This document shows positions 34,077 to 60,665 of a stretch of 64,000 nt of DNA, piece by piece (within the stretch, counting starts at the first letter, position 1; each line of letters starts with the position of its first letter). The notes under the pieces are model-generated. The model saw nothing but the letters and a program-made list of their open reading frames with translations. It did no database searches and was not told the DNA's origin. This DNA is from Owenia fusiformis (taxonomy: Eukaryota; Annelida; Polychaeta; Sabellida; Oweniidae), in contig CAIIXF020000002.1 of assembly GCA_903813345.2 (NCBI GenBank), positions 5,804,001 to 5,868,000 of the forward strand, read 5' to 3'. The position numbers were made by a program, and so were the translations under genes.

Positions 34077-37000
34077 ATGGAGAAACACTGTTTGATGCTC
34101 ACTAGGATCTTATTTACTCTGGGGCTTGTAGTTCAGGTACGTATATGTATCTTTATCCCAACAAACATAAATGGGGCAAAGTCCAACTTGCCCGACCGTG
34201 CCCCAGCGAGTCCCATGAAGTCCCATTGAACCTCATTAACTTTGCCCCATGGTGTGCCATCGAGTCCCACCATGCCCAATTGAATCCCAGGGAAATAATG
34301 TTCTTTATTATAAAAGATTTTGCCGTGGCTATTTTGATGCACAAGTCAGCTTACACGTCATATGAACCAAGATGTCCTATGGAAAGAAAGGACAAGCTCA
34401 TTCTTGATTACCCTTTGCATTCGTTTGACTTCACTTCTTAAAAGAGAGCTTCGTCTTCAGTTTAACTAGACTCTGCGCGCAGGGCAATTCTTGATGTGAC
34501 TTGGTGTGACTTTGCCAGTGAAGCCCGGTTAAGTCCCATGGGACTTGATTAGTTCGTCATGGGGCAAATTCACACGGAGCCCGTGAAGTCCAATGGGGTT
34601 CCGCACAATATGGAGGTCACACCGCGATGTATGTTGGGCTTAATATGACATTTTCTAACATGTCTTATGATTAAACATTTCGTCATCTTTGTTTCTATTT
34701 TAAAACAATGGGCTTTCAAGAAAACCTAGCTATGCACGCAATAAAGTGGAGCCAATTAGCAGTTTAATTGCACATTCTTCATATAAAGTATCGTTTTTAA
34801 CGCGGTATCATATTCGATTTGTAATTGATATCTCATGAAGTAGTGTTGAAAAGTGCGCCACGTGTTCATTCATCAGGTCTAAAGTAATAAAGCCCATATT
34901 TTTAATATGTTACAATAGCATGATGATCTTCAAAATAAGAAGGGTCAAATATTTGTCTTTGCCTCGTTCCAAAAATCTTGGCGTTTGCCATCATAAACTG
35001 CTTTCAATACTAGTATCGCTCTTCTCAAAATTCCCACTATGAAATTTTCTAATATTGCAGATTTCTATAGTTAATAATTTTATTTAAAAGATCAAACTGG
35101 TTCTTTCTAAAAAGTCTTATTTTTGATATAGTTAGCCAGTCATTTAGTTAAAAACCTATCGACGGTGGTAGTATGCTTCAAAAAAGGTTATGCTTCAAAG
35201 GTGAAACGTGGTGTGGTTCTTTTAACTAAATTTACCCCTCCCATGGGCTCCAGACTTTAACATTTTTTTGCATAAAATGGCCAAAAACGTTTATTCTCTT
35301 GAATTCAAATAAAGAATGCAGTGGAATAGCAATAAAAATTATATTTAAAACACATTTCTGCTGACTTTGCCTGATAGTACAATAAGAACATATCAATTAT
35401 TGAAAAATGGAAAGTATTATAAAAAATCATTTTAAGTGTCTCATATAGATATTTATATTATATTTCAGAGAACAATCGGAGTTCCTCCAACTGTGACACA
35501 AGCTGATTGTAAGTAATTCAATTTAATGGATAGCTTTTCATCTTCTACCTTTTCAACAGAAATATATACACCTATTTTAATTTTCCATATTTCCTTGATT
35601 ATGGAGCTCTAACACTTAGGCCGCGTGGTCGCCACCGTTTGGATACTTTTTATTGCATAGCAAGGTATCCCCCATCACACCAAACACAAAACTAATTAAT
35701 TTTAAAAAAATGCCCAAAATTAGCCACACGATGGGGAACGGTGAACCAACACGACTAATGCGACACCTACCTTTGGGGAGAGTACATTTTAATTATACAA
35801 TTTCACAGCCATATAACTATTTCAAATATATTATAGTAGTATGTATGTATTCAGCGATTTAGAATAAATTTATAAAAGAAATTTGAATCACGACCCGCAG
35901 TTGCCGTGACATGTGGAACTGAGAGCGCGGGAAACACGTACGGACCGATAGATGTCACCCTTACTGTCCCGGATGCAGCCACCGTCGAGGATTACACAGT
36001 TTATATTTTCTCTGACAATGCTGCACCGCCATCTTGTGAGTTCAACAGAGACTCGACAGCGACCTCAGTACTTAACCCTTCAACACCCACGTTTACTAAT
36101 TCGTTCTCGTACAATTGGATCGCAGAAGCTCTCTCAAGCCCATATCCTAGTGAAGGCGTTTGTGATGTAGCGGCAGTAGTGAGTGGTTGCTCTTTTATAA
36201 GTAATATCAAATATATATACGAGATATTTCCATTTGTTGTTTGATGTCATGTATAAATAAGACAATAGAGTGCTTAAGCTTGTATATAAAATCGAAACAG
36301 CAACCTATACGTATCAATCGCCCACATACAAATGCATGTAGTTTCTCACTTAAATAACCGTTCGGGCTTCAGTGTTTGTTGAGACTACACCGCAGCATGT
36401 AGTAATATGCCATTGATAGTTCTATTGCTGGTTTTCTGATATATATTTTAAACATTCAACAAGCTCGTATCGTTAAACATTTGTAGCTAAACATGCTTGA
36501 CATACATCATCTTCTTCAGAAAGTATTCTACTGAGCATCGATATCAAAATTACCAACATAGTATGACTATATACATAAGTAAAATGATTCCCGATGATAC
36601 CAATGTGAAAATTTTAATTTTCCGTTCTAAACACAAAACTCTGAAGCTGAACGTGTATCTGAAGTCGACTATCGCATATAAAACTACTAAGCGGCAAGCG
36701 CTCGACAGATTCCTAAATTAATTCATGTACTTTCCGTCCAAGGTTACGTTGTGAAAAAGATTGCAAGCTTAAACTCTCTAAAATTATACTTGAGAAATAT
36801 TCTTCATAAATACGTGTAAGATAACAAAAGAATGTTTAGAAGTACTGAGTACAACATTATACGATTCAAAACACTTTTCCTTTGTAGAATTCCTCACACG
36901 TTATAATGAAAGTGATGGTGGTCGAAGGCATATTATTCACAGCGGAAGATAAAGTTTTTAACATTATATGTGAATACCAGCCTGCATCCATAGGTACTGG

Positions 37001-39661: not shown

Positions 39662-39686
39662 CCTTGGCCCACTGGTCTCCGAACGT

Positions 39687-39692
39687 AATAAA
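39687..39692 (+). terminator. Polyadenylation signal of ZP gene 1
   Basis: AATAAA 26 bases after the stop. The surrounding text (CACTGGTCTCCGAACGTAAT) resembles that after the stop of the second gene (CAACTGGTCTAGGAACTTAA), so the 3' untranslated region was duplicated with the gene. Confidence 0.65.
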
Positions 39693-39699
39693 CAATCTG

Positions 39700-41200
39700 G
39701 AATAAGAATAGACCAGGCGTTGATGTTAGCAGCTGACATGGATAGAATAATTGATACACGGGTAAAACTGAAAATCGAAGCACAAATATTTTGTACAATA
39801 ACCATAGTGTGGCAAAATCAAAATCAACAATTTTGATTTAAGTAAATTGACAAATAATTTGAAGACAAAAATCCAGTGTAACAGAATTCTAAGATATGGA
39901 ACACATTTTAGTAATGTAATGAATTCGAAGTCCAGAGGTAGTTAGAAAATACCTCCTAAACTTTGCCGGACCCATTGACATTAGCCTAGCCTTGCTTAGT
40001 TTTTGCCCTGGCTATGGTTTAATAAAAAATGAACATATTCTGAATTTAACAATGTTATGAATATACCTAAATGTCACTTATGTGGTTTGATAAAAATAAA
40101 ATAAGTACAAAAGTTCTGTTTTTGGCGTATTTTCATATGTTAGGTTCCACATATTTGTAGTCCGGTCTAGAGAACGTTCTACTTTTTAACTCTAAAGTTG
40201 AACAGTAGTCTGACTTATTGAATTCTCGGCAAATGGCTGTATGACAGTAACTTAGGTATACTGTGTTTATAAATCACTTATTTTTATCTATAACTTAAAA
40301 CGTTTGTGTATTACGTTATCATTTGTAAATTCTGACCTTATAGGTCAGGAATCACAGTGATACTTGGCATAAAATCATATTTATTTAGTATCGAATCTAT
40401 AATATAAGCAAGAACTAATAACGTATACCTTTACGTATAAACAGACGTTATGGTGAATGACTGCGTTATTAACATTTGTTTTGGTTACCTTTTTTTGCTC
40501 ACCCTGTATGTATGTTCAAAAATCAGTTATCTGATTTCAGCTCATCGAATCTATCCATCTATTCAGATCATGTAGTCCGATTCCAATATTCCTATTTTAC
40601 TTACCATACCAAGTAAAGGGGTAACAAACGATATTGCCACACACGCGTGACTAGTTATTTATAGCAAGTTTCATTTGTTGGGTCTGTAAAAGCACGTGAA
40701 GAGTGATAAATAAGATGATTATCAGCGTTAAGGTGAGAAATTGTTCATATTCTTTTATTTCTAGATGTTAAGTGCAATGTTCAGGCATAAAATCGTTTGA
40801 TTATTTAAAATGAAACTGGGTTTAGTTTTCGGATATCAGAGGCTAGATTTTGCGATCTTGGAACTACCGATAACCGGCCTAGACCTTAATCTTCAATCGT
40901 TTTCTTATCATTGATTGAGGTTCCGATGCTCTTGATATCCTACCTACTACTTTTTCCTAAATTAAATTACTTTTGGCCCAAACCAGCATCCGGCTATTCT
41001 TCAAATATCATCTGCTGCCATTATTTTTTTCTACCTAACATCCTTTCGAGTTTTATTATTAAAATAGTGTTGAAAAATATGATCTGCTGCCATTTGCTTA
41101 CAATACCCGGATCATTTAGTGAACAAACTGTATCCCTCTGGATATAAATTTTAGATTAGAATTCCTAATTGATATTATACGGGCAGTTTTGAGTGTTCCG
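39700..41200. other. Spacer between the two ZP genes
   Basis: AT-rich. GTTAAG followed by donor GTGAGA at about 40733, with TTATTTATAG upstream, is an alternative candidate 5' exon for ZP gene 2. A solo transposon-like end TTGCTCACCCTGTA lies near 40496. The plus frame 40911-41147 is not convincing. Confidence 0.4.
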
Positions 41201-41204
41201 CATA

Positions 41205-41275
41205 GACATGGTGGATATGGTAAACAAGCGCACTTTACGTCATTAGAGCAGCGAATTGTACACAATTTATAAAAG
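41205..41275 (+). promoter_or_regulatory. Candidate 5' untranslated exon of ZP gene 2
   Basis: ACACAATTTATAAAAG precedes a donor GTAAGG at 41276. The acceptor before the first coding exon is at 41526. The upstream boundary and transcription start are not visible; no strong TATA box. Confidence 0.35.
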
Positions 41276-41532
41276 GTAAGGTTACTCTGTTGCTATAAAA
41301 CCTCATTATATATATATATTATTTATCATTAACAAAGGTATTTAAATTTCGATTTCCCAATTCATCTTTCTGTTCTAAGAGGGCTGATGTTCTTCACAAC
41401 GCAGCATCATCATATATCTTAAGGTTATCAATAATATTTCAACTCATCACTATTCTTTTCAACGCCTTCTTACATTTTCATTTAGACCATGGCAACAAAA
41501 CAGTTACATGTCATTTTCATTTGCAGGACACA

Positions 41533-44500
41533 ATGGGGAAACACTGCTGGGTACTCAGTAGTATAGGATTTGTTCTTGCCGTTCTAGTTCAGGTATGAGA
41601 ATGTGATATTTTCTGATAAATCCCGGCAGTGTCAAATCTTTGGTTCTATGAAGTAAAGTCGACTTGAACTTGTTTGTGAAAATTCAAAATAAGACAAGGT
41701 TTCGTTTTTACCCTTGGATATCTATTGTATACTGGAGAAAACCAACTATTGTCGGGAAAAATGCAGAGCATTGGTAGCCTTCGACAAACTATACTAGATT
41801 CACGAATTCTGGCAGTAGTGATGTTATTTGTATTGTATCAGCAAGTGTTTTTAGATATAAAAAATAAAAGTGGTGTTTTAATTATCGGTTTCTATAAAAC
41901 ATGTTTCATAGATTTTACTTTTTCAGAGAACGTTTGGAGTTGCACCGATTGTAACAACAGATGACTGTAAGTCGTTCATATTATAGATTACCAACATACT
42001 TTATCAATAACGGGGGGGGGGGTACATATTGTCAATATTGAATAAATTGTATTATTATATCACTATCTAGCTAGCGACAGTATGATAGGTCAAAACCGGG
42101 TCACATGTCGTGGGATACCTGGCGATATTCAATGGCAATGCTAATCAGATAAGACAACCGTGAGATATCTAACGATATCCCACGCTCCTGGGAATTTTCA
42201 AAAAATTTGTTTTCGTTCAGTGTAAATAATTTAGTTCAGTGTTCGAGTAGATTCGTAAAAATATCTGAAGAAAAGTATTTCAATGTTAACCTATGACTTA
42301 ATAATATTAGGGTGTTTAGGAATGTTTAGCTAGACAGTGATATAATAAAACAAATATTTAACTCTATTTTCGGTGAATACCTGTAGCACTTACACAAGGT
42401 GATATTCCACTTGCCCTTCGGGCTTCGTGGAATATCACTTGTGAAAGATGTACAGGTATTCACCTCAATAGAGTGAAATATTTGTTCAATATTGTTACTT
42501 TATTGTATAGTTGACTGTTGGGATCGAATATTGAGAAATTCAACATGACTTTTCGAATTGTATCTATGATCTGAATTAGAAAGCGTCCAATTAGATAAGA
42601 CTGTAGTCTGTATCGCTAATTATTTTCCTTATATTTTGTGACAAAATGTACATTTTGACAAGGTATATGTGATTCAAATATCTTGATATTACCTGTAGTT
42701 GCGGTAGCATGCGGAACTGAAGGCCCGGGGAACATTTACGGACCGATAGAGGTCACGCTTACTGTCCCGGATGCAGCAACCGTCGAGAACTACACAGTAT
42801 ATGTTTTCACTGACAGTCCATCGTCAGATTGTGAGTTTAATAAAGACTCAACAACGACTTCAATTGCAAACCCTTCAGTCTCGTTCACTAGTTCGTTCTC
42901 TTACTATTGGGATGCAGAATCACTGCCTGGTCCTTCTTACCCCAGCGAAGGCGTCTGTGGTGTTGAAGCAGTAGTGAGTTATTTCTCATTGTAAATATCC
43001 TTCCTAAAATGGACAAAATTAATTGTTCCCGTTCCAGTGGATAACCAAGGGTGACAGCAGCCCCCACATGGCAGCAGCCGCCATAAAATGCTAGATACCT
43101 GTGTGGAGACACACAACCATTAGATCCTTCCGCCGAGTGGGAAGACGAATAGATGGCATTATAAAAACAAAAATATAGTCCAATTATTGTAATTACATTA
43201 GCATCACCAGTGGTTGGATTTTGGTAAGTACATGAATGAAAAAGTGTATGTGTGGACCAACTCTGAGACATGATTTGATGTGATTAAGGTGCATTTTCTT
43301 TAAAAAATTTGACCTTTTTGACCTGCCTCCATCTGTCAAAATCAGAATGACATTTTTTGACATTTTCTATAGATGGCGTCTTCAACAGGTGAGATCTTTT
43401 GATTTTCGTGGGGAGTTATGATTCAAACTTTTTTGACTGACAGAGGACATACTGGGGTATGATGCAATGATAGCAAAACATGTCCACAAATCTTAGTTTT
43501 CTCTTGAAGACAGATCGTTTGTATGGGAATACGCATGTTATAACAATTAGTTGGGTTAACCCTATTATCGCCCATTCTGGAGTACCACTTTTTTTTAATT
43601 TGGTCATATTTCTCAACTTTTTCCAGTTTTTATTGGGACTTTCATTAATTTCATCCCTCTCAATGCGTTTGACAAAGTTTCATGTCACTATGGTCCATGC
43701 TTTTCCCCAAAAAGTGCTGAATAAGCATTTTTTCGCAAAAACTTACCCCGTGTTATTCAAATATGTGCATAAATTAGAGAAATCTATTGATTATTTTTCT
43801 AAATCACAAAAATTGATTCTAGGCAAAATGTGCTATCCAGATATAGCTCAATCAGCTCTGTAATACCTCCCCAGATCAAACTAGACATCTCCCAACACAT
43901 CCGTCATAGGCTCCAACCAGGAGTCAACTTTTTGTTACTTTGGTCATATTTCTCCACTGTTTCCATGATTTTTATTGGAATTTTCACAAATTTTGCTCTA
44001 GAAGGCTAAATCATTAGCCATGACCTAACCCTAACCCCAACAATATCTCTAACCCTAACTATAGCCTAACCCTAAGCCAGAGCCTAACTCTAAACCTTAA
44101 CCTGAACACCAACACTACCCCTAACCCTATCTATAGCCTAACCCTAAGCCAGAGCCTAACTCTAACCCTAACCCCAACACTATTCCTAACCCTAACTACA
44201 GCCTAACCCTAAGCCAGAGTCTAACCCTAACCCCTAACCCTAACCCCTTACCCCAACATTACCCCTAACCCTAACTATAGCCTAACCCTAAGCCAGAGCC
44301 TAACCCTAACCCCTAACTCTAACCTCAACACTACCCCTAACCCTAACTATAGCCTAACCCTAAGCTAGAGCCTAAGCCTAACCCCAACACTACCCCTAAC
44401 CCTAACTATAGCCTTACCCTAAGCCAGGGCCTAACCCTAGCCCCAACACTACCCTTAGCCCTAACTAAAGCCTAACCCTAAGCCCAAGCCTAACCCTAAC

Positions 44501-47500
44501 CCCTAATCCTAACCTTGACTTAACCTTAAGTAATCAAATACAGTGTTCAGAATGATCATTTATCAATTGGGAGACCTATAATTGGAAATGTGTGTTGTTT
44601 TGGTTTTCTTTGATGAATATTCCCCAGGGTAGAACAACAACTGGAGAAAATGACCAATTTTTCTGTATCCTCCATACTAAATATTTCTCTGTAAACATTC
44701 AGAAGCAATAATAATGATTACAATTAGTTTATGTAATTGATAACACATGAATTGTTCTATCATTTGACAAAGTTTAATGTCACGATGGTCTGTACTATTT
44801 CCCAAAAGTGTCGAATAAGCATTTTTTCGCAAAAATCTACCCCGTGTTATTAAATATGCGCATAAATAAGAGATATTAATTGCCTATTTCTTTAAATTAC
44901 AAAAATTGATTCTAGGCAAAATGTGCTTTCCAGATATAGCTCATTCAGCTCTGTACTACCTCCCCATCTCAAACTAGACACCTCCCAACACATCTAGCCA
45001 TAGGTTCCAATTTTAGTCAATATCCCAGGAAAACATCTAATTGCAGAAAGGGGATGGGTAACTTTAATCATTCATATATCTGGAAAAAATAGTCGAATCT
45101 ACTTGCGGTTTGTATTATTTTACTAGAAAACAACTTGGGGTTACATTTTGGAGGAAATTACAATTGTAACTTAAAGGATGGGTCACTACTAGGAGACACA
45201 CAACCATTAGATCCTTCCGCCGAGTGGGAAGACGAATAGATGGCATTATAAAAACAAAAATATAGTCCAATTATTGTAATTACATTAGCATCACCAGTGG
45301 TTGGATTTTGGTAAGTACATGAATGAAAAAGTGTATGTGTGGACCAACTCTGAGACATGATTTGATGTGATTAAGGTGCATTTTCTTTAAAAAATTTGAC
45401 CTTTTTGACCTGCCTCCATCTGTCAAAATCAGAATGACATTTTTTGACATTTTCTATAGATGGCGTCTTCAACAGGTGAGATCTTTTGATTTTCGTGGGG
45501 AGTTATGATTCAAACTTTTTTGACTGACAGAGGACATACTGGGGTATGATGCAATGATAGCAAAACATGTCCACAAATCTTAGTTTTCTCTTGAAGACAG
45601 ATCGTTTGTATGGGAATACGCATGTTATAACAATTAGTTGGGTTAACCCTGTATTGATCGTTTGGCCTTGACTGATTCTTTAATTGAGGTGAACTTGTCC
45701 AAAGGCCTTGTAACGCCAAATATCTAGATATTATCCTTTGACCTTGAGATGACCTTGGCCCATAAATATTGACTTTGACCTCAGGGCACCTATTAATGAA
45801 TCGCTACAGTATCCTTCAAGTGCCGTTTTCTCGTTGGTCTTATATTTTCAGTTAGGCTTTTATTTTCCCTTGAACTTCATTTTCTCTATTTTCACACACA
45901 AACTTTGCAAATGGAAATATATTACTTTGCAGAATTCTTCACACGTCACCATGAAAGTGATGGTTGTCGAGGGGGTATTGTTTACAGCGGAGGATAAGGT
46001 CTTTAATATTGTTTGTGAATACCAACCAGCATCCACTGGTATAGCCAGCGTAAAAGTCGACAACGAGCCTTTGGAGTAAGTACGATCCACATCCTTTCTA
46101 CAGTGCACATCATATCTGACCTTACATACTGCCATGGGATCAGGATGGTGTCTTCTTTTTATTCTACTGCAGACTCTCATGCTGCATTTTCCATAAATTT
46201 TCACATTATATCAAATGTTCGTTGAGTTGCGATCTTTATTTAGATCGATAAAATTGTTCAATCAACGCTGTCATTACAGTTTTTTCGAATGGATTGACTC
46301 GGTTTGAAGTTTCCCTTGGTGTACGCTAATTCTTGTTATTTTATATAGATCAACTGACAATATCGAGGCGACGGGTACGCCAAATGTCCTCGATCGAAAC
46401 TACGCGCTAACTATGCATACTGATGCAAGTGGAGATACAGTTGCATCTCCTATTATCATAGGAACTCATGTTAACCTTAGAGTAACGATGGCTGGGGCAG
46501 ATGGAGGAGAAGGAGCAGGTTTTAAAGTTCATTCCTTATAATAATTATTTCGTATGACTATTTTATGACATATTGCGTAACATATTTATACATCTAAATA
46601 ATACTAAACACACTTTTTACGTAAACTATTACGTAATTATAATTTTTCAGATGGTGATGAAAATGCGATCCGTGTAGATTCTTGTATCGCCACCGATGAT
46701 GCCGTTACAAATACCGTAAATCTTATTACTAACAGGTATTATGAAATGCAATGATATAAGTTTGAAAAACTGGAGATATTTCTTATTTAAAGAAACATCC
46801 AGTGGTCTAGTTTTTTAAGGCGACTCAAAGGAATGCCATATATATCTATGTTGCTTTATGTCTAACTTAAATGGAGTGCCTGATTATTTTTGACTAAGGG
46901 TGGCCGAATACAGATATTTTGGTCAGTGACATTAAAAAACGCGTCTAATAAGACTGACGCGCGCCCACCTAATTGTGGAACCTTAATAACCATTAATATG
47001 TTGGACAAATTAGTGGAATTTTAAGTCAATTGTATGGTCCTGTATAACCAACTACGATAAAACTAAATTGTATTTATTATCAAAGTGGCAAAATCGTGTC
47101 ATTTAGATCAACATAAAGGAAGAGGTCTACCATTTTCTGAAAAATGATTGAATTTATATTGCATTATCGCATAAAGATTGACAGTACACGATCCAGGCCT
47201 TTAAATTGAATCTCTTTATAATTATATTTTTCAGATGCCGTGACCTAAGTACCGAGGTCATCTGGAAACATAACTACAATGCCCGAGACAGAATCGGATT
47301 TTTCACTGATAATACAGGAGAACTATCGGAGTCGCCTGCCTTTGAGATGTTCGCTATTACTGGCGGAAATGCCAAGAATATTGTTTCATTTACTTGCGAT
47401 GTCGAAGTATGTAGAGACTTGGCTGATTGTCAAGGGGTAAGGAATACAATATTAAGCTTATTGACATGGGACAACATGGAACAACGGGAACAATGTGTTA

Positions 47501-48442
47501 GTTGATTATAAAATGGAAAGAGAGATCATATGGGCCTAAAATGCATTAAATGTTAGGAACAATTTCCCATAATTTATTAGCAGATTGTAAAATGACAGTA
47601 AAAGTATTTATAGTTTCTAAGTAAATTTTAAAATGGTAAAAATGATCGCACATAATTAAATAGCAGATTAAGAAATTGTAGGAAACTCACATATAAAATG
47701 GTTATGAAATTAATTAATTATGAAATGGTTTGAATAACCAACAACACAAAATTTACTAGTATTAGCAGATAGTTATAATTAAGAATGGTAATGCCTATCA
47801 AATAGAAACCAAACAGGACAAATCACATATTTCAGGATAACTGTCCGAGTAAGAGACGTAAACGTGACTTTTTACATCTGACTGGCGTCGACAGATATAG
47901 ACGTAGTAGTGCAACGACTGGTCACGTGTTTCTCTCTACGTCAGTTATGATACACGATGGTGCTGATGGAAAGGACCCACAGTCGGTTTCTTCTGGTAAG
48001 TACATGTACTGCAGTATAAACCAACCGGTTTTTTATATCTTTATCAATATGTTATTTTGTTAAGTTTTATACAATATTCTCAGATTCCATTGAAATATTA
48101 TGACAGAGAAAGTCTCTATTTTTGATAATATTTTAATTTCTTTACAATGTGTGATAAAAATAAAAAAGGTTGACTCCCTGTTTCAAGTGTCATGAATTTG
48201 GACATTTGTATATCTTATTTGCCAATACTTTCTATATTTGATTAGATATATCTATTCTCTTTCTGGAAAATAAGATTGGGATTCTAAGAGGATAATAAGT
48301 AAGATTTGAGACTGTTGAGCTAATATTTGCTGCGACTTCAACAAATTGTTTTCTTTTTTCAGTTGCAAGTGTTTCAACGCATTCGCTGTTAGCTTTGATA
48401 TCAGGAATGGTCATTGGGACTATATGGTCGAGTATGAAATAG
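41533..48442 (+). CDS. ZP-domain secreted protein, paralogue 2 (9 coding exons, 404 aa)
   Basis: Tandem duplicate of the gene at 34077. Coding exons: 41533-41592, 41927-41966, 42699-42973, 45933-46075, 46349-46518, 46651-46735, 47235-47436, 47836-47995, 48363-48442. Intron positions and phases equal those of paralogue 1, and five of nine internal exon lengths are identical (40, 143, 170, 85, 202). Signal peptide MGKHCWVLSSIGFVLAVLVQ; ZP-N cysteines in VACGTE, CEFN, GVCG and VCEY; ZP-C cysteines in SCIATDD, RCRD, FTCDVEVC, DCQGDNC. Cleavage site CPSKRRKRD is kept. The linker after it is shorter by six residues, and the tail ends TIWSSMK. The donor of exon 5 (GTTTTA) is weak. Intron 3 is about 3 kb and repeat-filled, against 0.7 kb in paralogue 1. 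Presumably the same job with partly diverged surface. Confidence 0.88.
42351..42484. mobile_element. Foldback element in intron 2 of ZP gene 2
   Basis: CAAATATTTAACTCTATTTT through GGTGAATACCTGTA and GATATTCCACTTG is mirrored by CGTGGAATATCACTTGTG through TACAGGTATTCACC and AATAGAGTGAAATATTTG. Arms of about 60 bases with a short loop. Confidence 0.8.
43105..43563. repeat. 459-bp direct repeat, copy 1
   Basis: Runs from GGAGACACACAACCATTAGA to CAATTAGTTGGGTTAACCCT. By eye it is identical, without gaps, to 45192-45650. Each copy holds the same minus-strand frame (start at 43271 and 45358), which is a by-product of identity. Both lie in intron 3 of ZP gene 2. Confidence 0.9.
43665..43917. repeat. 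Diverged direct repeat, copy 1
   Basis: TTGACAAAGTTTCATGTCAC ... AAGCATTTTTTCGCAAAAA ... ATTGATTCTAGGCAAAATGT ... CTCCCAACACATC corresponds to 44762-45010 with many substitutions and small gaps. Confidence 0.85.
44020..44515. repeat. Degenerate interstitial telomere-like array (CCCTAA)n
   Basis: Nearly 500 bases of CCTAACCCTAA variants with a higher-order unit of roughly 60 bases (CTAACCCTAACTATAGCCTA then ACCCTAAGCCAGAGCCTAA). The plus strand carries the C-rich strand. Lies between the two diverged repeat copies. Confidence 0.9.
44762..45010. repeat. Diverged direct repeat, copy 2
   Basis: Partner of 43665-43917: same order of words (AAGCATTTTTTCGCAAAAAT, ATTGATTCTAGGCAAAATGT, CTAGACACCTCCCAACACAT). 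Clearly older than the 459-bp pair that encloses it. Confidence 0.85.
45192..45650. repeat. 459-bp direct repeat, copy 2
   Basis: Offset of exactly 2087 bases from copy 1 at both ends. Left flank CACTACTA and right flank GTATTGATCG differ from those of copy 1 (CTGTGT and ATTATCG). No TG...CA ends and no target-site duplication were seen, so it is not a clear LTR. Confidence 0.9.
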
Positions 48443-48462
48443 ACCAACTGGTCTAGGAACTT

Positions 48463-48468
48463 AATAAA
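48463..48468 (+). terminator. Polyadenylation signal of ZP gene 2
   Basis: AATAAA 21 bases after the stop, in a context shared with paralogue 1. Confidence 0.65.
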
Positions 48469-48973
48469 ACACGTGTCCATGCTGTGTACACCCGATATAG
48501 AGACAAAATCAAAACATATGTAAATAGTAGTTATGGTTACTATTTACAATTTACAATTCTATTTTGTCATCACAAACTAGACATTAAAGTTAAAGAAGAC
48601 TGTACCCTCAGTCTCGATATTGCTCATTTTAACTTAATCATTAAATTAGAGGTTTTGATCACAAATGAGACCTTAAAGAAAACCATACTATCCCGATATT
48701 GCTTGGGGCTTTTAGGGTACAACAATAGACATGTATCGGCACAAAAATGCCGATTAAGATTGATCTGTAAATCGATTTTTAAGGAATGTACTGTATCTTA
48801 AACATCATTCTGTGCAAAATTAATATTAGTCCAAAATATACTTGTTATCATATACATGTAGTTTACCTTGTCGATTCGTATTTTATCAGGCGAATCTCAA
48901 ATAAATAACCAAAGTAAATATTTAAAAAGTGCTCTTTCGTGCTTTCGTTGTTTTTTATCATTGCATTCTGGAC

Positions 48974-49844
48974 ATACACTCCCCTCCATAGGTTTTGCAA
49001 CCTTAGCTCCCCCATTGAACTACCTGTTAAAGCCTCCTTACGTTTGAATTTTTATTAACTTAATCTGCGATGGAGAAACTTAAAATATTGATGGAAACGT
49101 GACTTGATTTTATTTCCAATACCTCCAAATTTTCTCATTTTTTCTCAATTACAATAGGTCGAAAATTGATGATAAATTTGATGAATTTTTGAAAATTGAC
49201 ATTCCAATCGTTAACCAATTGGAAATGGTAGATTTGCCGCAAGTCAATTGACAGAATATCCATCCATCCAAGTCATTGCGCATGCAAAAATACAAGTTAG
49301 GTTGGAAATTGAATTTGCTAACTTTATCTATCTATAAATTTCTTCAGGTTCTACAAAGATATGGGTCTTTAAAGTCAAAATTGTTTTTCAAAAAACCTCC
49401 CCCATTGATATAACACAGGAGGCGAAAAATTATCTTCAAAAATGACTTTGAAGCTCTGTAACTTTTGTATTCATCAATTAAACTAAACACGTAGTGTACA
49501 AAAAAGTTAGACAATTCAATTTTCTATATAGAAATATTTTTTGCTGAATCGTTTACTGAACAGATATCCTGATTTCTGATTTGCCCCAACCCACCATTTC
49601 CCATTGGTTTACATGGGAATGACGATTTTCAAAAATACATCAAATTTATCATCAATTTTCGACCTATGGGAAAAAAATTGGAAAATTTGGAGGGATTGGA
49701 AATAAAGTCAAGTTACGTTTCCATGTATATTATATGTAATTTCATCGAAGGGTAAGTAAATAAAAATTCGAACGTAAAAAAAGAGGCTTTAACACGTAGT
49801 TCAATGGGGGAGCAAAGGTTGCCAAACTTCTGGAGGGGAGTGTA
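48974..49844. mobile_element. Element with long terminal inverted repeats, about 870 bp
   Basis: TACACTCCCCTCCATAGGTT ... GCTCCCCCATTGAACTACCT ... at the left is answered by AGTTCAATGGGGGAGCAAAG ... CTGGAGGGGAGTGTA at the right. Inner arms (AATAGGTCGAAAATTGATGA / TCATCAATTTTCGACCTATG) extend the pairing to some 250 bases. A solo end, ACTCCTCTCCATAG, is at 38947. No transposase seen. Confidence 0.85.
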
Positions 49845-49929
49845 CATGTACCCGATGTGAGTGAATTAGACCTATGATATCATCAATAGGCCTAAGTGAC
49901 ATTGATACTGGGTATAGGCTGTATGTATC

Positions 49930-50045
49930 TCATTTGGAGGGAGAATATCCCATAATTCATAGACGAATCTATAGCCATTCAAAGATGAACCTATAGACAG
50001 ACAGGGTTGTCTTTGAATTCTGGGTGATTCCTCCTCTCTCTTGAG
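49930..50045. mobile_element. Foldback element, GAGGGAGAATATCCCATAAT type
   Basis: GGAGGGAGAATATCCCATAA then TTCA at the left and TGAATTCTGGGTGATTCCTC then CTC at the right are inverted. Middle GACGAATCTATAG / ACCTATAGACAG. Relative of 24925-25022. Confidence 0.5.
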
Positions 50046-50342
50046 ATTTTGGTACATTTTTCTTAATACAGGCAAGACCACTTGCGATTTCTCTTGCACA
50101 TAAGCTGTTTTTACATCATTGTCTTTAGAAAAACATATGTTATTGCAAGTGACAGATAGGGAGTACATCACTACGACAAGAAGTACATCTCTTCAAGTGT
50201 CAGGACAATCCTTAACACAAATAGGTTCATAGATAAGTTAAAGGGAGAATCGGAATATGCATATTGATTTTTTGATTTATTAATAATACAGAGCTTTCAA
50301 TATAAAAATAGAGTTATATAAATGTTGATATCTTTATTTATA

Positions 50343-50505
50343 ATCCCGGTGTGAAACAAATTATGGTCCGCGGGGATTATGGTCCCCCTTTAAAGGTCCT
50401 TACTGGCCCTGATTGTGTATAAGAGAAAGAGCACAAAGAGGTCACCATATAAATCAATGGAGAGTAGGAGCATAAATAAATAAGACTCTTTTACACTGGG
50501 TTTAT
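50343..50505. mobile_element. MITE family F, copy 2
   Basis: TCCCGGTGTGAAACAAATTA then TGGTCC at the left, TTTTACACTGGG at the right. Collinear with 37085-37260. Confidence 0.75.
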
Positions 50506-50743: not shown

Positions 50744-51649
50744 ATGAGGAAAACCATAGCACTCAAAATGATATGGATGGCATTGGTTTTATTGTGTTTT
50801 CTCGACCCCGTTTCTTGTGAAGGTAAGACTAGTTAATCTCTAGGCATCTATCCATTTTTATAAATTTAATTTTCACTACCTTTAACACGAGACACTTGGA
50901 TCCTGGAATGTCATAGACATTTTTAAATGGCGATTAAGCCATTTGTCAATAAAGCTGTCAAATTACGTAACTTTCAAAATTTTAGTCTCCGTTTCGGATC
51001 CCGTCAGCAACTAGCATATCAAGAATTATGGAGGTATTTTTTCTAATTTTGAAGATAATACATTTGAGTCACACTTCCACAAATCGAAAAGTTATCCTGA
51101 AGAACATTATTGTATTTTCAAAATGATTGACTCTTCTATCGACATAGTTTATTCACTTTGAACATTTGATCTTAAAACATGTACATTTTATATAAAAAAG
51201 GTTAGAGGTCAATGGTTTCCCTATAAAGTCAATGATAATAGTAGGAAAAAGTAGTGAAGTAAAGTTTAAGTTATTTGAACTTGATTTTCCCAATGACTGA
51301 TTTCTAATGACAATGATAATGCCCTGCACATTTCATTTTCCATTCATGTAGGATTTGCATTTCAATTTCAAATTGTTGATGACCGGGTTCAAGAAAATCT
51401 TTGAAAAATCCATGGATTTCCAAATCATTTTCTAATAGAGGATTGGCATTTATTTATTCAAAGGACCAGATATGGTATGGCATATGACCTCAAATTTAGA
51501 ATGCGGGGAAGATGGTGAAAGCGAATGTCTAGACTTGTTTGATGACGACTGCCCAGGTTTTTGGGATTTCGACCGGGAATGCTGGGGCGGACCATCCACC
51601 ACTGCCTGCTGTGTCAATGTCCCTACAACACCCGTACCGTCGCCGCCAG
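50744..51649 (+). CDS. Signal peptide plus six-cysteine module: alternative 5' exons of the chitinase gene
   Basis: Exon 50744-50822 codes a signal peptide (MRKTIALKMIWMALVLLCFL then DPVSCE) and ends in phase 1 at donor GTAAGA. Exon 51464-51649 starts in matching phase and adds about 61 residues. They hold six cysteines (spacing C-x7-C-x7-C-x9-C-x8-CC), very acidic (EDGESECLDLFDDDC), then a threonine/proline linker (VPTTPVPSPP). It ends in phase 1 at donor GTACGT, which fits the catalytic exon at 55534 (G|AT = Asp), just as the other first exon (54917-55115) does. So this is probably the N-terminus of a secreted form. The spacing is defensin-like in outline, but I know no exact match. It could instead be a separate short gene whose last exon I missed. 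Confidence 0.6.
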
Positions 51650-51699
51650 GTACGTAATGCACATGTTGCTTATGAAAGATCTCCTCTACATCACGAGTC

Positions 51700-51830
51700 A
51701 ATGTCCCTGCTAATATGATAAATTTTAGTGTAACCCCTGTACCTTCAACCTTAGGAGGTATTTTTTATAGAGAAATGGAATGTTTGGGCTGACCATCATC
51801 CGTTACGTACACAATGTCTTCAATGTCAAG
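51700..51830 (+). pseudogene. Possible decayed copy of the six-cysteine exon
   Basis: AGTCAATGTCCCTGCTAATA ... GTAACCCCTGTACCTTCAAC and, further on, GAATGTTTGGGCTGACCATC echo GTCAATGTCCCTACAACACC and GAATGCTGGGGCGGACCATC in the exon just upstream. The order is scrambled and frames are broken. Confidence 0.35.
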
Positions 51831-52490
51831 TAATGATCAGAAAAAGAAACGTATAATAAATACTAATGTTCTTTCACATAAATTAAATATACAAAGTAAA
51901 TTAAGTCTGTAGGTATATGAACTTCTATAATACACTGTAAATTGGATAATCAGATATTTTAGAGTATAATAAGATACATGTAGATTCTCCAAATCGAGAG
52001 AAATGAATACAGAAATAGTGAAGTGTTGGACCTAAACCACATGCGGATTAAGTCTTTGTGATTGGTCAACTCTGGCCAGCCCCCTTGTCAGCTAAGAATG
52101 AATTATCATTATAGACCACTCTGTTCTGCAACACAAAATAACTAATCTCATGATTAGCTTTTACTTAATGTTTTATCAGCAGTGAGGAATTGGAACTTTA
52201 CGAAATTTAATTTCCCTGTTTAACCGTATTTTAATGATTTTTTGACCACCTTTAAACATCCCCGTGTCCACCAGTGAGACGTTATTTAAATGTTTGCTAT
52301 ACATAAAAAGTTTGCATTTTTAGCGATTAAGATATAAATTCTCGGTAAGAACGAAGTACATACATTTTACATAATGCACAATTAACAATAATCATAAACT
52401 CATCCGGTTTGTGTTATCATTTATTTTATTGAGTTAGTCAGAGATCTCAAAAGAAGGATTACTTTTGATGACACGTATACGTAACTATAT

Positions 52491-52598
52491 AATAGGGAGT
52501 TTAAGCTTGCAACCTAACGCGAACGGAAAATATTTGGGCAATTGGTCATACGTATAGGTTGGCGGTTCGATTTTATTTGCAAGCTTAACTCCCTATTA
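52491..52598. mobile_element. Short MITE, AATAGGGAGTTTAAGCTTGC termini
   Basis: AATAGGGAGTTTAAGCTTGC at the left pairs with GCAAGCTTAACTCCCTATT at the right. About 108 bases, with a weak internal palindrome. Confidence 0.75.
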
Positions 52599-52629
52599 TT
52601 CATTGGACTATGATTAAATGTTCTATATA

Positions 52630-53685
52630 CGAGGGTTGTCCCAGAAGTAATGCACTATATGCTCTAACTTTCTTTAATATTCTTCAATTCAGCTGAAATT
52701 TTGTGTATTTAACAATTGAAGTTTCATCTATTATATCCTGAGGTTTCAGCATCAAACATTTATATTAAGTCTTAATACGGTTGCTATAACGACATGGGGG
52801 TAGGGTTGGGCGGGGCAGGTACCAATTTTTCTAATTATGAAAAGATGTAATGTGTTATTTTATTAATATTTCTTTCCTTTAAATGATCAAAATGTTTGGG
52901 AAATTGTTAAATTTATACAGCATGATGTTAACCAAGTACAAATAATGACATTTAGCACTGTTATGTCATAATACCACATTTCAATAGTCACGGATTCAAA
53001 AACAGTCACAGTCAAGAAATTACAAAAATGGCTACAATTCTCACCTGATAACAGAAGGCCTTGCGTTTGGTGGCCTAATTTCATACTTCACTTTGCCACG
53101 CAAAACTTATGCTACCACGAAAAAAGTATATAAGGAGTATTTACCAGATAGAACTACAATTATGAGGTGGCAGAAGAGATTTAAAAGAGATGATTTGACC
53201 CTGGATGAGAACTCCAAACATAGGAGGCAAAAACTCCACAAGTCACAGTGCAGACATTACCAAGAGTGTTGAACCTGACAGGCATCAAAAGTACATAACA
53301 TGCAAAGGGCAATATTTTGAGAAATGTGAAACGGGACACTGTGTAATATACATCCATTAAATCTAGGATGTGCTCATAGCAATTTAGTATCTTCAAATGT
53401 ATTTTTGAGCATACTTCTTATAGCTACACAAAATGGTATTTGTTGATTAATTATTTCATATTTTAATTTTTTGTTCCTTTTGAAGTGACTGTATAACTTG
53501 CCCCACCCTACCCAAACTCACCAACTTGATTTTATTATAACATAAATATAGTTTTATCAGTCAACATGAAAATTTGTAGAGTAATCAAAATGTCTCTAAG
53601 GAACATTTACTGAATATTTCATGGAAAAATATCAGTTATTGATAAAGTTAGAGCATATAGTGCATTACTTCTGGAACAACCCTCG
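52630..53685. mobile_element. Decayed mariner-like transposon, about 1.06 kb
   Basis: Termini CGAGGGTTGTCCCAGAAGTA then ATGCACTATATGC and, inverted, GCATATAGTGCATTACTTCT then GGAACAACCCTCG are flanked by TA on both sides. The interior keeps a transposase helix-turn-helix remnant (53084-53272). Lies between the two alternative 5' exon sets of the chitinase gene. Confidence 0.85.
53084..53272 (+). pseudogene. Mariner transposase N-terminal remnant
   Basis: Frame YFTLPRKTYATTKKVYKEYL then PDRTTIMRWQKRFKRDDLTL ending in a stop resembles the second helix-turn-helix of mariner transposases (TTIxxWxxRFKxGDxxLxD). No DDE/D catalytic domain can be read downstream; the ORF is broken on both sides. Confidence 0.65.
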
Positions 53686-53689
53686 TAGA

Positions 53690-54900
53690 GACTATATTTT
53701 GGTAAAACATAGATATTTTGGAGTGAATCAATATTATTTCAATCTACAAACAAACAAAATTGAGCATCACAAATTGTTTTAAGTTAACGTATGCAAAATT
53801 ATGAACTCTTGTAGGGTATTTTTCTAAACACATAGAAGTCGGTAACAAAAAATGTGCGTGGTACTATAAAACAAACGAAAAACAGATAATCGCCAAAATA
53901 TGTCATATATAGTTCATAATACATACATCTAAATATAAAAAGGGAAAGTCAAAAGGTCCTTAGATCAAAATAGCGAACAGTAAATTTATTGTCAAAAAGT
54001 GTTTATATCGACAAACATGTGTGTTATCATTTTTAAGTAGCTCCTATCTCACAATTATTGTTTTTATAACAAAACATCTCTTGACACACCAGCTCGAAGT
54101 CTAATATATTCTGTATTTTATAATAGACACCCTGAACTGTATATGTTGGTCACCCTACACTCTGCTTATTTAGTAAGATTTAACAGTTTTGAACATAATA
54201 ATCTCAAATGAATGTTTCAATTAATTCTTCATCTGGGCTCTAATGTGAAAGAAGTTTTTGCTACTTTTGCGCAGGAAACACGGAACTGCTTTTTCGACTG
54301 CATACTCTTATTGGCTATTGCATAGACACACCTTGCATCTCATCGAAAGAGTATCCCAAGAGACGTGTCGACGTCTTATTACAAAGTGTGCTTCATAGAT
54401 TCATTAATTAATCAGATCTCAAATGTCTTATAACGAAGATAGCATTGTTGTAAAGAATTTTCATCTTCTACAAAATATATGTGTAGAACATATTCAAGAG
54501 CGATATCACAATACTTGATACTACCAGTAGCAAAGTGGACGGTACTTGAGAATGGACATTGTTAACGTATGCCATCATGGTGTATTATAGATTTTATAAC
54601 GTAAATACAATTCGTGAATCTGAATAAACATACGGCACAACTCAAAAGGAATACAATATTACTTCTCCAAAGGGCAAAACACGTTTAAAATTGTGAATAA
54701 ACCTGACACCATTACTCAAGAGGAGCACTATATAACATTCAATGCGGAGCAGTTTTACTACTGAATGAAGTAAAGCACATGACATAGCACTCAAAAGGAA
54801 CACAATATAAATTTTCCAAAACGGGAAAAGATAATACCTCACGTAAAACATATGCCATATCTCCAAAGAAAGATAACATAACACCCCAAACAGGGAAAAT
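53690..54900. other. No recognised feature
   Basis: AT-rich DNA upstream of exon 54917. A promoter for the membrane-anchored chitinase form should lie here, but no clear TATA box or known element was seen. Confidence 0.4.
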
Positions 54901-54916
54901 ATACTAGTAAAATAGA

Positions 54917-57900
54917 ATGACTCTATCCGAATTACTGAGTGGAAAACGGAAATTTATAGCTATAGGGATAGCAGTGGGAATATGCGTTATCCTTGGTATA
55001 TCGATTGGAGTAGGGGTACACATATCCAGCCAGCAGGGTGGACAGATTGGTGTGACGGAAAATCCTAGCAATGGAACTACTGAAGTCCCTTGGGAAATAA
55101 CAACTGGAATACCTGGTATTTACACACCGTAAAAGAGGACAACTGGGCAAAAATAGTGTTATACATGTATATATGTTATGCCATCAGTCTAAGAGCGGAA
55201 AATATGTAACGATATTGCCCGTTTTGTAGGTTTGAAAAATTAAAATGAAGGAAATAAAATGTAAATTGACTGTAAAGTTTATTACAGTCATCACTGTCAA
55301 TCTTTCCTTAATTTGTCTTATATTTTCCTCATTTTGAAATTTGCAAAACATGAACGTTATCATGAACTGATTTCAGATTGATATTTAATCAAGTGCTATT
55401 CATGTTTTTAAGTTGTTCTTTTTTAATATTACGCATTTTTGTTCTTTGTTATTGAACAAATTTCAACAAACCGCTTAAAATTCCAAATTGTAAATATAGT
55501 TTTCATGATGTGACCAAAGCATCTTTTTTTCAGATCGAAAATATATAATGGCCTGTTACTATACCAATTGGGCACAATATCGACCAGATGGTTACAAGTA
55601 CGTATGACCATTAAATATATACAGGGTATACCAAAAGTGTTACCCACCTCACAATGCATATCATTTTAATCGTGGGTTGCATGCCATTTTGGTACACCCT
55701 GTATTGTTAAATATCTATTATATGTATGTATATATGTATATTATCTATATTTAAAATCGGGTAATTTCCAGGAATGCTGGAGTAAAGAAGCCTTTTTTGT
55801 GTTCGTGTACATCTGGTACATAGACAAAAGTCTAAAAAGGTATATAGGGGTTATGCACTGGGAGGTTTTGGATACAGGGAATATCCCGAGGGATATACAA
55901 TATATCTTCCCGAGGGACCGAAGGGACCAAGGGAAGATATATTGTATATCCCAAAGGATATTTCCTGTATCCAAACCGACCGTGCATAACTGTTGTATTC
56001 CATACCTGATTAGGTTTGAAATAGTAAGCATGTATCCCATATTCTCTGGTGTGTTTACTTGCAAAATATATACTTTCAAATTTTCTTCCAAATTTTCTTC
56101 CAAATTTGTTTTCAACTTTTTTCAAAAATAAAAAGAAAATTTCCAATTTTTTTTTTCACATTATTTTTCAAACTTTTTTCACATTTTAATCCATAATTTT
56201 TTTTTTAGAATTTTTTTCAAAATTTTCTTACATAATTTCTTTCCACATTTTTTTTTCAAATTTTCATTTTCAAATTTTTTCCCCCAATTTATTTATTTTT
56301 TTCAAAAATTTTTTTTGAGCGGGACATACGATTTATATGTCCCGGAGCTCCGGTGGAGCGGGACATACGAAAAATATTTGCCCGGATATGGAATATATTC
56401 CCGGTTGATATGTCCCTGAAACCTCATCAGGTATGGAATACATACAAGTATGTACATCAGACGTTTGTACTTGTTATCAACTGAGATAACGTCGGATAAC
56501 GATTTGATTGCTATTTTTATGGTCAACTGATTTTAACATGAATAGAACCTGCTCCTAATCATATCCATATTTAAACCGTTGGCCACAAAATTGCAATCAA
56601 ATCGTCAGTCGACAGTCGGCAGTTGAATCCGCGAATGCTTGCTTAGACACAAAAATTGTTCTACCATTAATATGTCTTATCATCTTTCCTCGTGTACATG
56701 TAGGTTCTTTCCCGAAGACATTGATCCCTTCCTGTGTACGCATCTCATCTACGCCTTCGCCAACATGACTGGAAACCAATTATCAACATTTGAATGGAAT
56801 GATATCGACATGTAAGATCGGAATATATGCAGTCAGTGCCTGTTAGAGTATCACAGAATGGAGAATGGGGTATCTCCAAGAACAAATGTATCTGTAGACG
56901 ATTATCTACCGTATTAGTATAAATTGTAGCAGTACTATTCATATTTAAATGGGTTGATCATAAAATAGCAATATCCAATCGTGAACCCTGTTATATTTTG
57001 GTAGATCCAGGAAGCTATGACATATTGACTAGATTGGTAATGTCATTAGTTATTCTATTTTTTCTTGAACAGATTGCTATATCTATCTACCTAGCTTTGG
57101 CATCATCAATTATATAATTTACCATGCCTCCTCGGTGTACCAAACGGTGTCGGGGTTATATTATTAGGAAGGCATATTCTAACACTTGAGACCAAACATG
57201 ATACTAAAATCTCACACCATTTGTAATACCCTATTTTATGCATGGTATCTGAGTCGTGTCGCATCTTTAAAATCCATGTTGCATCAAACATTATAATTAC
57301 CATAGGTATAGACGTTTTAATGCTCTGAAAGCTAACAACACCAATCTCAAAACTCTCTTGGCAGTTGGCGGTTGGAACTTCGGGACGGAGCGTTTTTCTG
57401 ACATGGTTTCGACTCCTGAAAATATACAAGAATTTGTCACAACGACTATTGGTGAGTGAACCTTAAAACATTCGGCCTATTCCAGCATTTCATCATGATC
57501 TTTTTCAGCGAAACATGCTGGTTAATGATAAAATAAGTTTCCAAAATTCAAAAAAATATTTTTCCTTTAGATTTTCTCAGACTCCATGGGTTTGATGGAC
57601 TGGATCTTGACTGGGAGTACCCTGCACAACGTGGTAGTCCCCCTGAAGATAAACAACGATTTACTACGCTCTGTAGGGTAATGATCTACCTTTTGATTTT
57701 CGTACTTGTAAATGTAATTAAATGACATAAAGGAAATAATGTATATATAGAGGTTATTTAATGGGAAGGATGGAATATGGATTTTATTCCGAGGGAAAAT
57801 ATGATATTGGCCAAGGAAAATATCATATTGACCGAGGGCGATAGCCCGAGTGTCAATATGATATTTTCTGAGGCCAATATCATATTTTCTCAAGGAATAA

Positions 57901-60665
57901 ATCCATATTCCATCACGACCATCAATAACCTATTTATTTCATAATATTTTTTTTCAATTTTTGTATGTCATCATCCAATGATTGTGACATAAAATTATAC
58001 AATTTATCATATAACATTTTCAACTTTTATTATCAAGTTTTACTTAAAAATATAAATAATTTATAACAATTAAATGGCTCATAATATGGCAAAATAAACA
58101 CAATATCATGAATAACTACAAAAAATATACAAAAGCTATTAATGACTTCAAAAACTACTTCCTGTAGAGATGTGCTAGACGAGAAGCGTAAAACTCAAGA
58201 GAAATTACCGGGAATATTTCTGATACGGGATCTGATACGGGATTTTTGCTGATACGGGATCCAATACGGGATCTGATACGGGATTTTGGCTGATACGGGA
58301 TCTGATACGGGATTTTTCAAATAACACTTTTATTCCCTGTTATTTTCCCAGGGAAAACATGTTATTATGGAATAAATAATAAATATTTCTCATTTCTTTT
58401 AAATTAGTCCTTTTTGTACTACATCTCTCACACAAAAAACTTTCTCCATACCCCTTTATCTTTTCCTCCTGCTCCACCATTATTCTTTTCCCCTCCCCAC
58501 GACCATTTTTCTTTCGTGCTTCTTACCATCGTTCTTGCTTTAATCAAGGACGTCTATCTTATTCACAACTTAAACGCCCTATCTCCCTTAGTTAATGCCT
58601 CAGTCACATTATCTATAGCAGCCGAACGGTGACCGTAGCTTCCCAAAATCGAGCGAAAATATATAGCATGGGAAAACAACAGTACGATGTAAATTTTGTA
58701 TCGATTTTGTGAAGCTACGGTCGCCGTACGGCCCCCTGTAGAGCAAATGAGACTAAGCTGAAATCAACAGCACTTTCCTTTCTTTAATATATAACGTTCC
58801 TCTACCAATCCGTTCTGTATTAAAAGAGGTCGAAATATTCATTCAAAAATTAGGTATTTTCTCTAGAACTGTATACATACTGTTTGAACTGTGTAGGAAC
58901 TTAGACAAGGCTTCGAGGATGAGGCAACTAGAACAGGGCGTTCGCGTCTCATTGTCAGCGCCGCTGTTGGGGCTGGGAAATATGCAGCGGATACATCGTA
59001 CGAAATAGAGAGAATTTCAGAGTAAGCGAACCAGCATACGAGTGGTGGTTCAAAAGTAGTGGGAAAAGATTATATTTATCAGAAAATGCTCAACCGCGCT
59101 TGGTAGTAAAACGAGGAGATTGAAATGCAACTAAATATAATTGGATGAGCAATGGTAATATAAATCTCCACGCTTGTTATTTAGCCTACTCTAGCTACAC
59201 TTTTGTCCACTACTTTTGAATCACCCCTCGTATCTTTTATGACTCCTTATTCATCGAACCTAGTAGTTAAAAAGTGTTCTAATGTCAAATAGTTCAATAT
59301 TCTTTACCACTCTTGATTTAACTTAAATATCTTAAACATACATGCCCTTTTTATTACTATACTAGTAATATGCAATTTAGGTACTTAGACGATATATTCT
59401 TGATGTTGTATGACATGCAACCGACTGGCTACAAATACACGGGACATCATAGTCCGCTATATGCAAACCCTGTTATAGGAGACGCTTCTAAAGACAATAA
59501 CGTTGTAAGTAAAAAACTTAACATTCATGAATTCTTACATTTGGGGATTTTCTTGCAATCAAAAGTGAGTCATACTGGCATCGGTCGCATGACCTTCATT
59601 TTGTATGGAAAGTCAATTCTGTAACGCAATGCTCAAAAAACTAAATTATATTGACTTTCTCCGAACATTTGCCAAATTTTGGATCCTCGCTACGCCCCTG
59701 CTCTAGACATCGACTCTGATCATATTCCTCACACGAAACAGATTTAAGTGATGTCTTGGGATCTGCGTTCGTAATACGATAAATATATGTAAAATTGCAG
59801 AATTTTTCTGTGAACTACTGGGTTGCCAATGGCGCCGATCCCCGGAAGTTGATAGTAGGAATGCCCACATTTGGCAGAACGATGAATCTGACGTTTACAG
59901 AAAATCATGCGGTTGGCGCGTGTTCAAATGGACGTGGAGCATCCGCCCCTGGAACAAGAGAGGATGGATACATAGCATATCATGAGGTAGCCTAAGTTAT
60001 TTTGAGGTTGCTTTCAATCCAGTGTCGACCTAAGCACATCTCCGTCTCAAAAACGGTGACATATTGTTAAAGTCTCCAAGTTTTTTTTGTGAGTGGTGTT
60101 CACTCTGTTCAGTGGTTCGCGTTCGATGATAGATGACAGGTAGTGACAATTTGAATGTTAGTGCCTTGTTTGATACTAGAATATAGTAACTTCCCCTATT
60201 GTAAAGATTGGAATTGAATTTCCAGATTTGTAGTCTCTTAGAAGATGGAGCTATTGAATACTGGGATCCCTTCCAGCAAGTTCCCTTCTCTGTGCATATC
60301 CCCTCGAGTAGGTGGGTGGGATACGATAACACAAGGAGTCTAAGGATAAAGGTATAGTCGCATGAAATGAATTCGATAATGCATCATGTATGTGTATACC
60401 AACAAAGTTCCATACAGAAACATATGATAATTTTCTTCAAACCTAAAATGACTGACTTGTATAACTTTGGAGATGAACCCATTTTGAAAAAAAGTATACT
60501 TTCAGAAAATTGTTTTTGCAGGTGGAATGGTTAAAACGAAGTGGATTTGGTGGAGCCATGGTGTGGGCACTTGCGCTAGATGATTTCTCTAATGTTTGCA
60601 GCTTACATACCGGGCGCTTCCCGCTCATGAACGCAATCAAAGACGCTCTCTTGGGTATAAACTAG
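54917..60665 (+). CDS. GH18 chitinase-like protein, type II membrane form (10 exons, 442 aa)
   Basis: Glycoside hydrolase family 18, expected to cleave chitin or related N-acetylglucosamine polymers. Exons: 54917-55115, 55534-55597, 56704-56811, 57306-57451, 57571-57677, 58897-59021, 59381-59504, 59801-59986, 60226-60351, 60522-60665; phases all agree. The N-terminus is [12 protein letters not shown] followed by about 24 hydrophobic residues (type II anchor, no cleavage site) and a Ser/Thr/Gly-rich stem. The catalytic domain follows: [42 protein letters not shown] (DxxDxDxE with Glu acid/base), [18 protein letters not shown], and [13 protein letters not shown] at the end. Catalytic residues are present, so activity is plausible. 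MLYDMQ replaces the commoner MTYDLHG, which touches the substrate cleft. No C-terminal chitin-binding domain. The first donor (GTATTT) is weak. Confidence 0.88.
55622..55701. mobile_element. 80-bp MITE with TA target site
   Basis: CAGGGTATACCAAAAGTGTT and CCATTTTGGTACACCCTG, both beside TA. Mariner-type terminus akin to the one at 25935. It lies just after the chitinase exon 55534-55597. Confidence 0.8.
55850..55990. mobile_element. Near-perfect foldback, about 60-bp arms
   Basis: GTTATGCACTGGGAGGTTTT through GATACAGGGAATATCC and GATATACAATATATCTTCCC is mirrored by GGGAAGATATATTGTATATC through GGATATTTCCTGTATC and ACCGACCGTGCATAAC. Loop of some 20 bases. Confidence 0.85.
55994..56450. repeat. 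Inverted pair enclosing T-rich low complexity
   Basis: GTATTCCATACCTGATTAGG then TTT near 55997 is answered by AAACCTCATCAGGTATGGAA then TAC near 56428. The middle is TTTTTTTCAAA-type sequence (56040-56310) and GAGCGGGACATACGA direct repeats (56317 and 56355). Confidence 0.6.
56515..56645. mobile_element. MITE family D, copy 2
   Basis: TGGTCAACTGATTTTAACAT then GAATAG and AGTCGGCAGTTGAATCCGCG then AATGC match the copies at 30129 and 61018. Only the right half is clear. Confidence 0.5.
57751..57932. mobile_element. Foldback element, about 80-bp arms
   Basis: AGGTTATTTAATGGGAAGGA then TGGAATATGGATTTATTCC-like text, with AAATATGATATTGGCC, is mirrored by GGCCAATATCATATTTTCTC then AAGGAATAAATCCATATTCC. 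In the intron after the catalytic-motif exon of the chitinase. Confidence 0.85.
58220..58317. repeat. Tandem TGATACGGGAT array
   Basis: Seven copies of GATACGGGAT (one reads AATACGGGAT), some separated by TTTTTGC or TTTTGGC. Probably grew within an adjacent MITE. Confidence 0.85.
58623..58730. mobile_element. MITE family G, CCGTAGCTTC termini
   Basis: CGAACGGTGACCGTAGCTTC then CCAAAATCGA is inverted at TCGATTTTGTGAAGCTACGG then TCGCCGTACG. A second copy lies at 63268-63428. Confidence 0.75.

Follow-up and report, generated by a model that had tools for sequence, protein, structure and literature searches.

Can one chitinase gene supply its enzyme both fixed to the membrane and free of it by choosing between two sets of first exons? 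The question is raised by a locus of the annelid Owenia fusiformis, in a window of 64,000 nucleotides (contig CAIIXF020000002.1, positions 5,804,001 to 5,868,000 of the forward strand; unless stated otherwise, positions below are those of the window). The initial annotation proposed that two exon sets upstream of shared GH18 exons, one coding for a signal peptide, an acidic six-cysteine module and a Thr/Pro linker and the other for a cytosolic stub and a membrane anchor, both end in phase 1 and complete the same Asp codon. The window is part of a 35.75-Mb contig, and the genome that we searched comprises 498 Mb, twelve of its contigs being 32 to 62 Mb long.

The shared part of the gene is a GH18 domain encoded on the plus strand by nine exons between 55534 and 60665 (55534-55597, 56704-56811, 57306-57451, 57571-57677, 58897-59021, 59381-59504, 59801-59986, 60226-60351 and 60522-60665, the last with the stop codon). 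The Pfam domain PF00704 is complete (E=1.2e-87, positions 2-317 of 317) and the DxxDxDxE catalytic motif, encoded in exon 57571-57677, is intact; on the full domain and the motif we assign the gene to the GH18 chitinases. A Pfam search of the gene product, up to the stop at 60665, returned this one GH18 domain and none besides, with no CBM14. The nearest solved structures are those of acidic mammalian chitinase and chitotriosidase (PDB 2ybt, 3fxy and 4wjx), and the PDB matches to these two span the whole GH18 domain (E=7e-128 and 8e-119). Both mammalian enzymes are secreted by means of a signal peptide and carry a C-terminal CBM14, whereas the window gene has an anchor exon and lacks CBM14. 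Comparison of the window gene with its relative sister 1 (see below) indicated purifying selection on the GH18 part (dN 0.10, dS 0.79). Genome-wide, 86 exon-level matches to PF00704 were found, a GH18 expansion with many of the matches on C9 and C11. The introns of the window gene contain palindrome-like repeat tracts (55850-56450 and 57760-57940), for example ggatatacaatatatcttccc and its complement.

The membrane anchor is encoded in exon B (54917-55115, plus strand), which comprises a cytosolic stub, an anchor of ~24 residues and a T/P/N stalk, and ends in CTG followed by the phase 1 donor GTATTT at 55115. In the genome search, exon B had a relative at C2:2850901-2851083 (59% identity, E=5e-11) and a second one at C2:2836238-2836348, the latter a weak match by itself. 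Two tandem sister chitinases are located on the same chromosome, 3 Mb from the window gene, and each has an anchor exon directly upstream of GH18 exons with matching intron positions. The similarity extends into noncoding DNA on the plus strand. A block at 53925-54083 matches the region upstream of the sister 1 anchor exon at 73%, its only other place in the genome, and a second block, closer to exon B (54444-54556), matches sister 1 at 66% (E=2e-10). Because each sister has an anchor exon of its own and noncoding blocks upstream are shared with sister 1, these alignments identify exon B as the N-terminus inherited within a small family of membrane chitinases that have a single GH18 domain. 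Constraint acts on the anchor exon too, less strongly than on GH18 (dN 0.37, dS 0.99, window gene versus sister 1). From the hydrophobic segment of ~24 residues and its basic flank on the N-terminal side, an N-in, C-out topology is predicted. With a signal-anchor exon joined to GH18 and kept in the relatives, the established product is almost certainly a type II membrane protein carrying one GH18 domain. We propose that a short basic stub in the cytosol would lead, through one anchor and a short stalk, to a catalytically intact extracellular GH18 domain, by which chitin might be trimmed or remodelled at the surface of the cell that secretes it.

Membrane GH18 chitinases are already known from insects, and the window gene adds an annelid example. 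The group III enzyme CHT7 of Tribolium (TcCHT7) has no cleavable signal peptide and carries an N-terminal membrane anchor and extracellular GH18; its layout comprises two GH18 domains with a CBM14 at the C-terminus, and the protein is found membrane-bound as well as released into the cuticle (PMC5891080). The window gene follows the same plan of an N-terminal anchor with GH18 outside; with one GH18 domain and no CBM14, however, it lacks the two-domain layout of group III. The mechanism by which CHT7 is released is unknown, and no alternative first exon has been described for it. Tribolium CHT11, of group VIII, has a transmembrane segment at the N-terminus of a GH18 chitinase, and a mosquito relative of CHT11 is without this segment (PMC3097210). 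The latter case provides a precedent for gain or loss of an anchor. The likeness of the window gene to CHT11, which carries a single GH18 domain, is one of architecture, both having GH18 and an N-terminal membrane segment. The literature searched contained no report of a chitinase gene whose first exons offer a choice between an anchored and a secreted form; such genes may nevertheless exist.

The other proposed N-terminus is encoded by set A, which consists of two exons on the plus strand. Exon A1 (50744-50822) contains the start codon and the signal peptide MRKTIALKMIWMALVLLCFLDPVSCE, and ends in CTTGTGAAG followed by the phase 1 donor GTAAGA; its codon log-odds are best in its coding frame. 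Exon A2 (51464, or 51470, to 51649) is in phase 1 at both ends and encodes the acidic six-cysteine module followed by the tail TTPVPSPP. It ends in GCCAG before the donor GTACGT at 51649, which is the strongest of the set. The GC content of A2 is 52.7% versus 34.9% for the window, and its codon log-odds, in bits per codon, are 0.27 in the frame of the exon versus about -0.05 in the other frames, a score within the top 0.7% of windows and typical of the neighbouring real exons. By composition and codon use, A2 is more than a chance ORF, and A1 and A2 are probably real coding exons.

The first GH18 exon begins at 55534 behind the acceptor TTTTTTTCAG, which is followed by AT. The donors of A1, A2 and B each leave one base, to which 55534 supplies AT, so that G+AT forms the Asp codon at the junction for set A and for exon B alike, and neither spliced reading meets a stop before the one at 60665 (443 and 465 codons, stop counted). 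As far as exons, phases, frames, the content of both sets and the shared codon are concerned, the initial annotation was thus borne out. We scored acceptors with a model built from 26 homology-defined reference sites, from which 55534 was excluded. The acceptor at 55534 scored 9.8, inside the reference range, and ranked first of 202 downstream candidates. The A2 acceptor scored 3.1 if placed at 51464 or 4.4 if placed at 51470, so that even the weakest of the 26 reference acceptors (4.9) exceeds it.

Agreement in phase, on the other hand, is generic for secreted proteins and nearly uninformative for set A. It constitutes weak evidence because the ordinary chitinases of this genome appear to join a phase 1 signal-peptide exon to GH18; several of them (among others L043, L049, L054 and L059) have such an exon upstream of the CYYTNW exon, as called by a simple hydrophobicity and donor scan rather than from transcripts. 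Since other chitinases appear to use exons of this kind, A1 could also splice straight to 55534. The claim of two alternative N-termini therefore fared differently in its two halves: the membrane form is supported by two sisters and shared blocks, and the secreted form is allowed by phase, with no relative that joins it to GH18. Whether set A is joined to GH18 of the same gene we consider evenly balanced.

Set A might instead be a separate small gene, unrelated to the chitinase, that encodes a secreted acidic Cys-rich peptide and has its terminal exon within 51650-54917. A signal peptide and a single small Cys module would suffice for a secreted peptide, and A1 and A2 are absent from both sister genes; a search for homologous DNA upstream of both sisters found none. 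Phase-compatible acceptors that soon reach a stop codon are available at 51984 (8.7) and 51913 (8.1), near the 9.8 of 55534, and a further acceptor at 51755 (2.6) would join a decayed partial copy of A2 in register, giving GGIFYREMECLG and then a stop. However, no conserved terminal exon was identified when one was sought, the top downstream acceptor is that of GH18, and the T/P tail of A2 resembles a linker toward a further domain. We regard the separate gene as rather unlikely. A search for internal coding exons between 51650 and the GH18 exons found no further one. A splice from A2 to an acceptor inside exon B, at 54966 (7.3, in phase), was considered and rejected, as a signal peptide combined with the anchor would make GH18 cytosolic. 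Likewise rejected was a signal-peptide-like ORF upstream of the sister 1 anchor exon (stitched reverse-strand ~9601), which is not followed by a convincing phase 1 donor.

The decayed copy (51756-51828, plus strand) begins ~100 bp downstream of A2, corresponds to the 3' half of A2 and contains an in-register TGA stop. It aligned with A2 at a score of 37, compared with at most 32 in 590 control comparisons, and shows a loss of coding sequence from this stretch. Set A itself could accordingly be a relic, that is, old signal-peptide and module exons that have been out of use since the gene adopted the anchor exon. The weak A2 acceptor, the stop in the adjoining copy and the insertion of a repeat and a mariner element between A2 and exon B are consistent with such a history, as is the outcome of the genome searches, which returned no significant relative of set A: a protein search with A2 returned itself and one weak match (E=0.27), around which no supporting Cys-rich secreted gene was found. 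Long disuse, however, should have brought stops or damaged sites, whereas neither A1 nor A2 is disrupted: their frames are open, their donors undamaged and their codon use coding-like. We therefore judge the relic decidedly improbable.

Upstream of A1, positions 35876-50483 contain a tandem pair of genes whose products are relatives of egg-coat (vitelline envelope) proteins; they carry furin-like KRRKR sites and match VERL_C weakly (PF25272; E=1.4e-6 and 4e-6, at or just above the cut-off). The second gene of the pair ends only ~260 bp before the start of A1, which leaves little room for a promoter of A1.

The cysteine module has the spacing C-x7-C-x7-C-x9-C-x8-CC and is acidic, with 13 D/E versus one R and no K over 60 residues. 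Its cysteine count alone is unremarkable, since six cysteines within 40 residues also occur in 3 of 203 other long ORFs. The spaced C..C..C..C..CC pattern was not found elsewhere in the window or in the sister region. A Pfam search of the module at E up to 10 gave no match, a PDB search gave two matches at chance level (E=1), and structure prediction yielded no confident fold (pLDDT 51 and 53). The initial annotation had called the module binding or antimicrobial-like. Beta-defensin, big-defensin and clip-domain patterns have six cysteines ending in an adjacent CC, and the module shares the number and the terminal pair with them; in contrast to them it has the spacing 7-7-9-8, is acidic and has neither a Pfam match nor a meaningful PDB match. 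An antimicrobial assignment is unsupported, the likeness to defensins and clip domains being that of the terminal CC with no profile match.

Taken together, we favour a membrane chitinase that has set A as an alternative upstream first-exon set, and we give this overall explanation, the best available, an even chance of being correct. Transcripts of the type A1-A2-GH18 would encode a free enzyme bearing the small six-cysteine module. If A1 were spliced directly to 55534, the product would be an ordinary secreted chitinase like others in the genome, and A2 would be a frame-neutral cassette. The fuller proposal, in which two promoters would direct one catalytic domain to the membrane or, together with a new lineage-specific acidic six-cysteine module, into the matrix, is more tentative and falls somewhat short of an even chance. 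If true, it would amount to a genetic switch that selects between chitin trimming fixed to the cell surface and trimming targeted to the matrix, and secreted and anchored first-exon sets in one gene would be a simple route to both enzyme forms. As the evidence stands, support covers the membrane family only. The locus reveals a small single-GH18 membrane chitinase family in an annelid, a maker of chitinous chaetae.

Between A2 and exon B lie an interspersed repeat (51817-52167, plus strand), which matches 25 other genomic places, and a DNA element (~52628-53687, plus strand) with inverted ends and TA at both edges. The family of the latter has 39 or more other long copies, most of them 92-93% identical. 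The element's matches to HTH_29 and HTH_48 (Mos1) are weak and below cut-off; on the inverted ends, the TA flanks, the multiple copies and the transposase-like remnant we class it as a mariner-like transposon. The initial annotation suggested that this insertion was a possible source of a promoter, and its position, between A2 and exon B and ~1.2 kb upstream of the anchor exon, would allow it to have given the membrane form its promoter. Yet the region upstream of sister 1 also has the noncoding blocks that lie between the element and exon B, and the mariner was sought there and not detected. The anchor exon and the blocks predate a duplication with dS of about 0.8; because the mariner copies are ~93% alike, the insertion is younger than that duplication and younger than the anchor exon. 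These two observations speak against the mariner as promoter source, and we consider that origin extremely unlikely.

The three copies of the family differ in the stretch between anchor and GH18. Sister 1 has a far longer Ser/Thr/Pro repeat stalk than the window gene (stitched C2:2828000-2864000, reverse-strand ~12918-13311), and sister 2 has almost no stalk. The GH18 exons show mosaic similarity over window positions 55534-57677: exons 55534-55597 and 56704-56811 share 91-93% identity with sister 1, whereas for exon 57571-57677 the identity is 92% with sister 2 and 79% with sister 1. As the best-matching sister differs among the exons, this pattern suggests gene conversion among copies 3 Mb apart.
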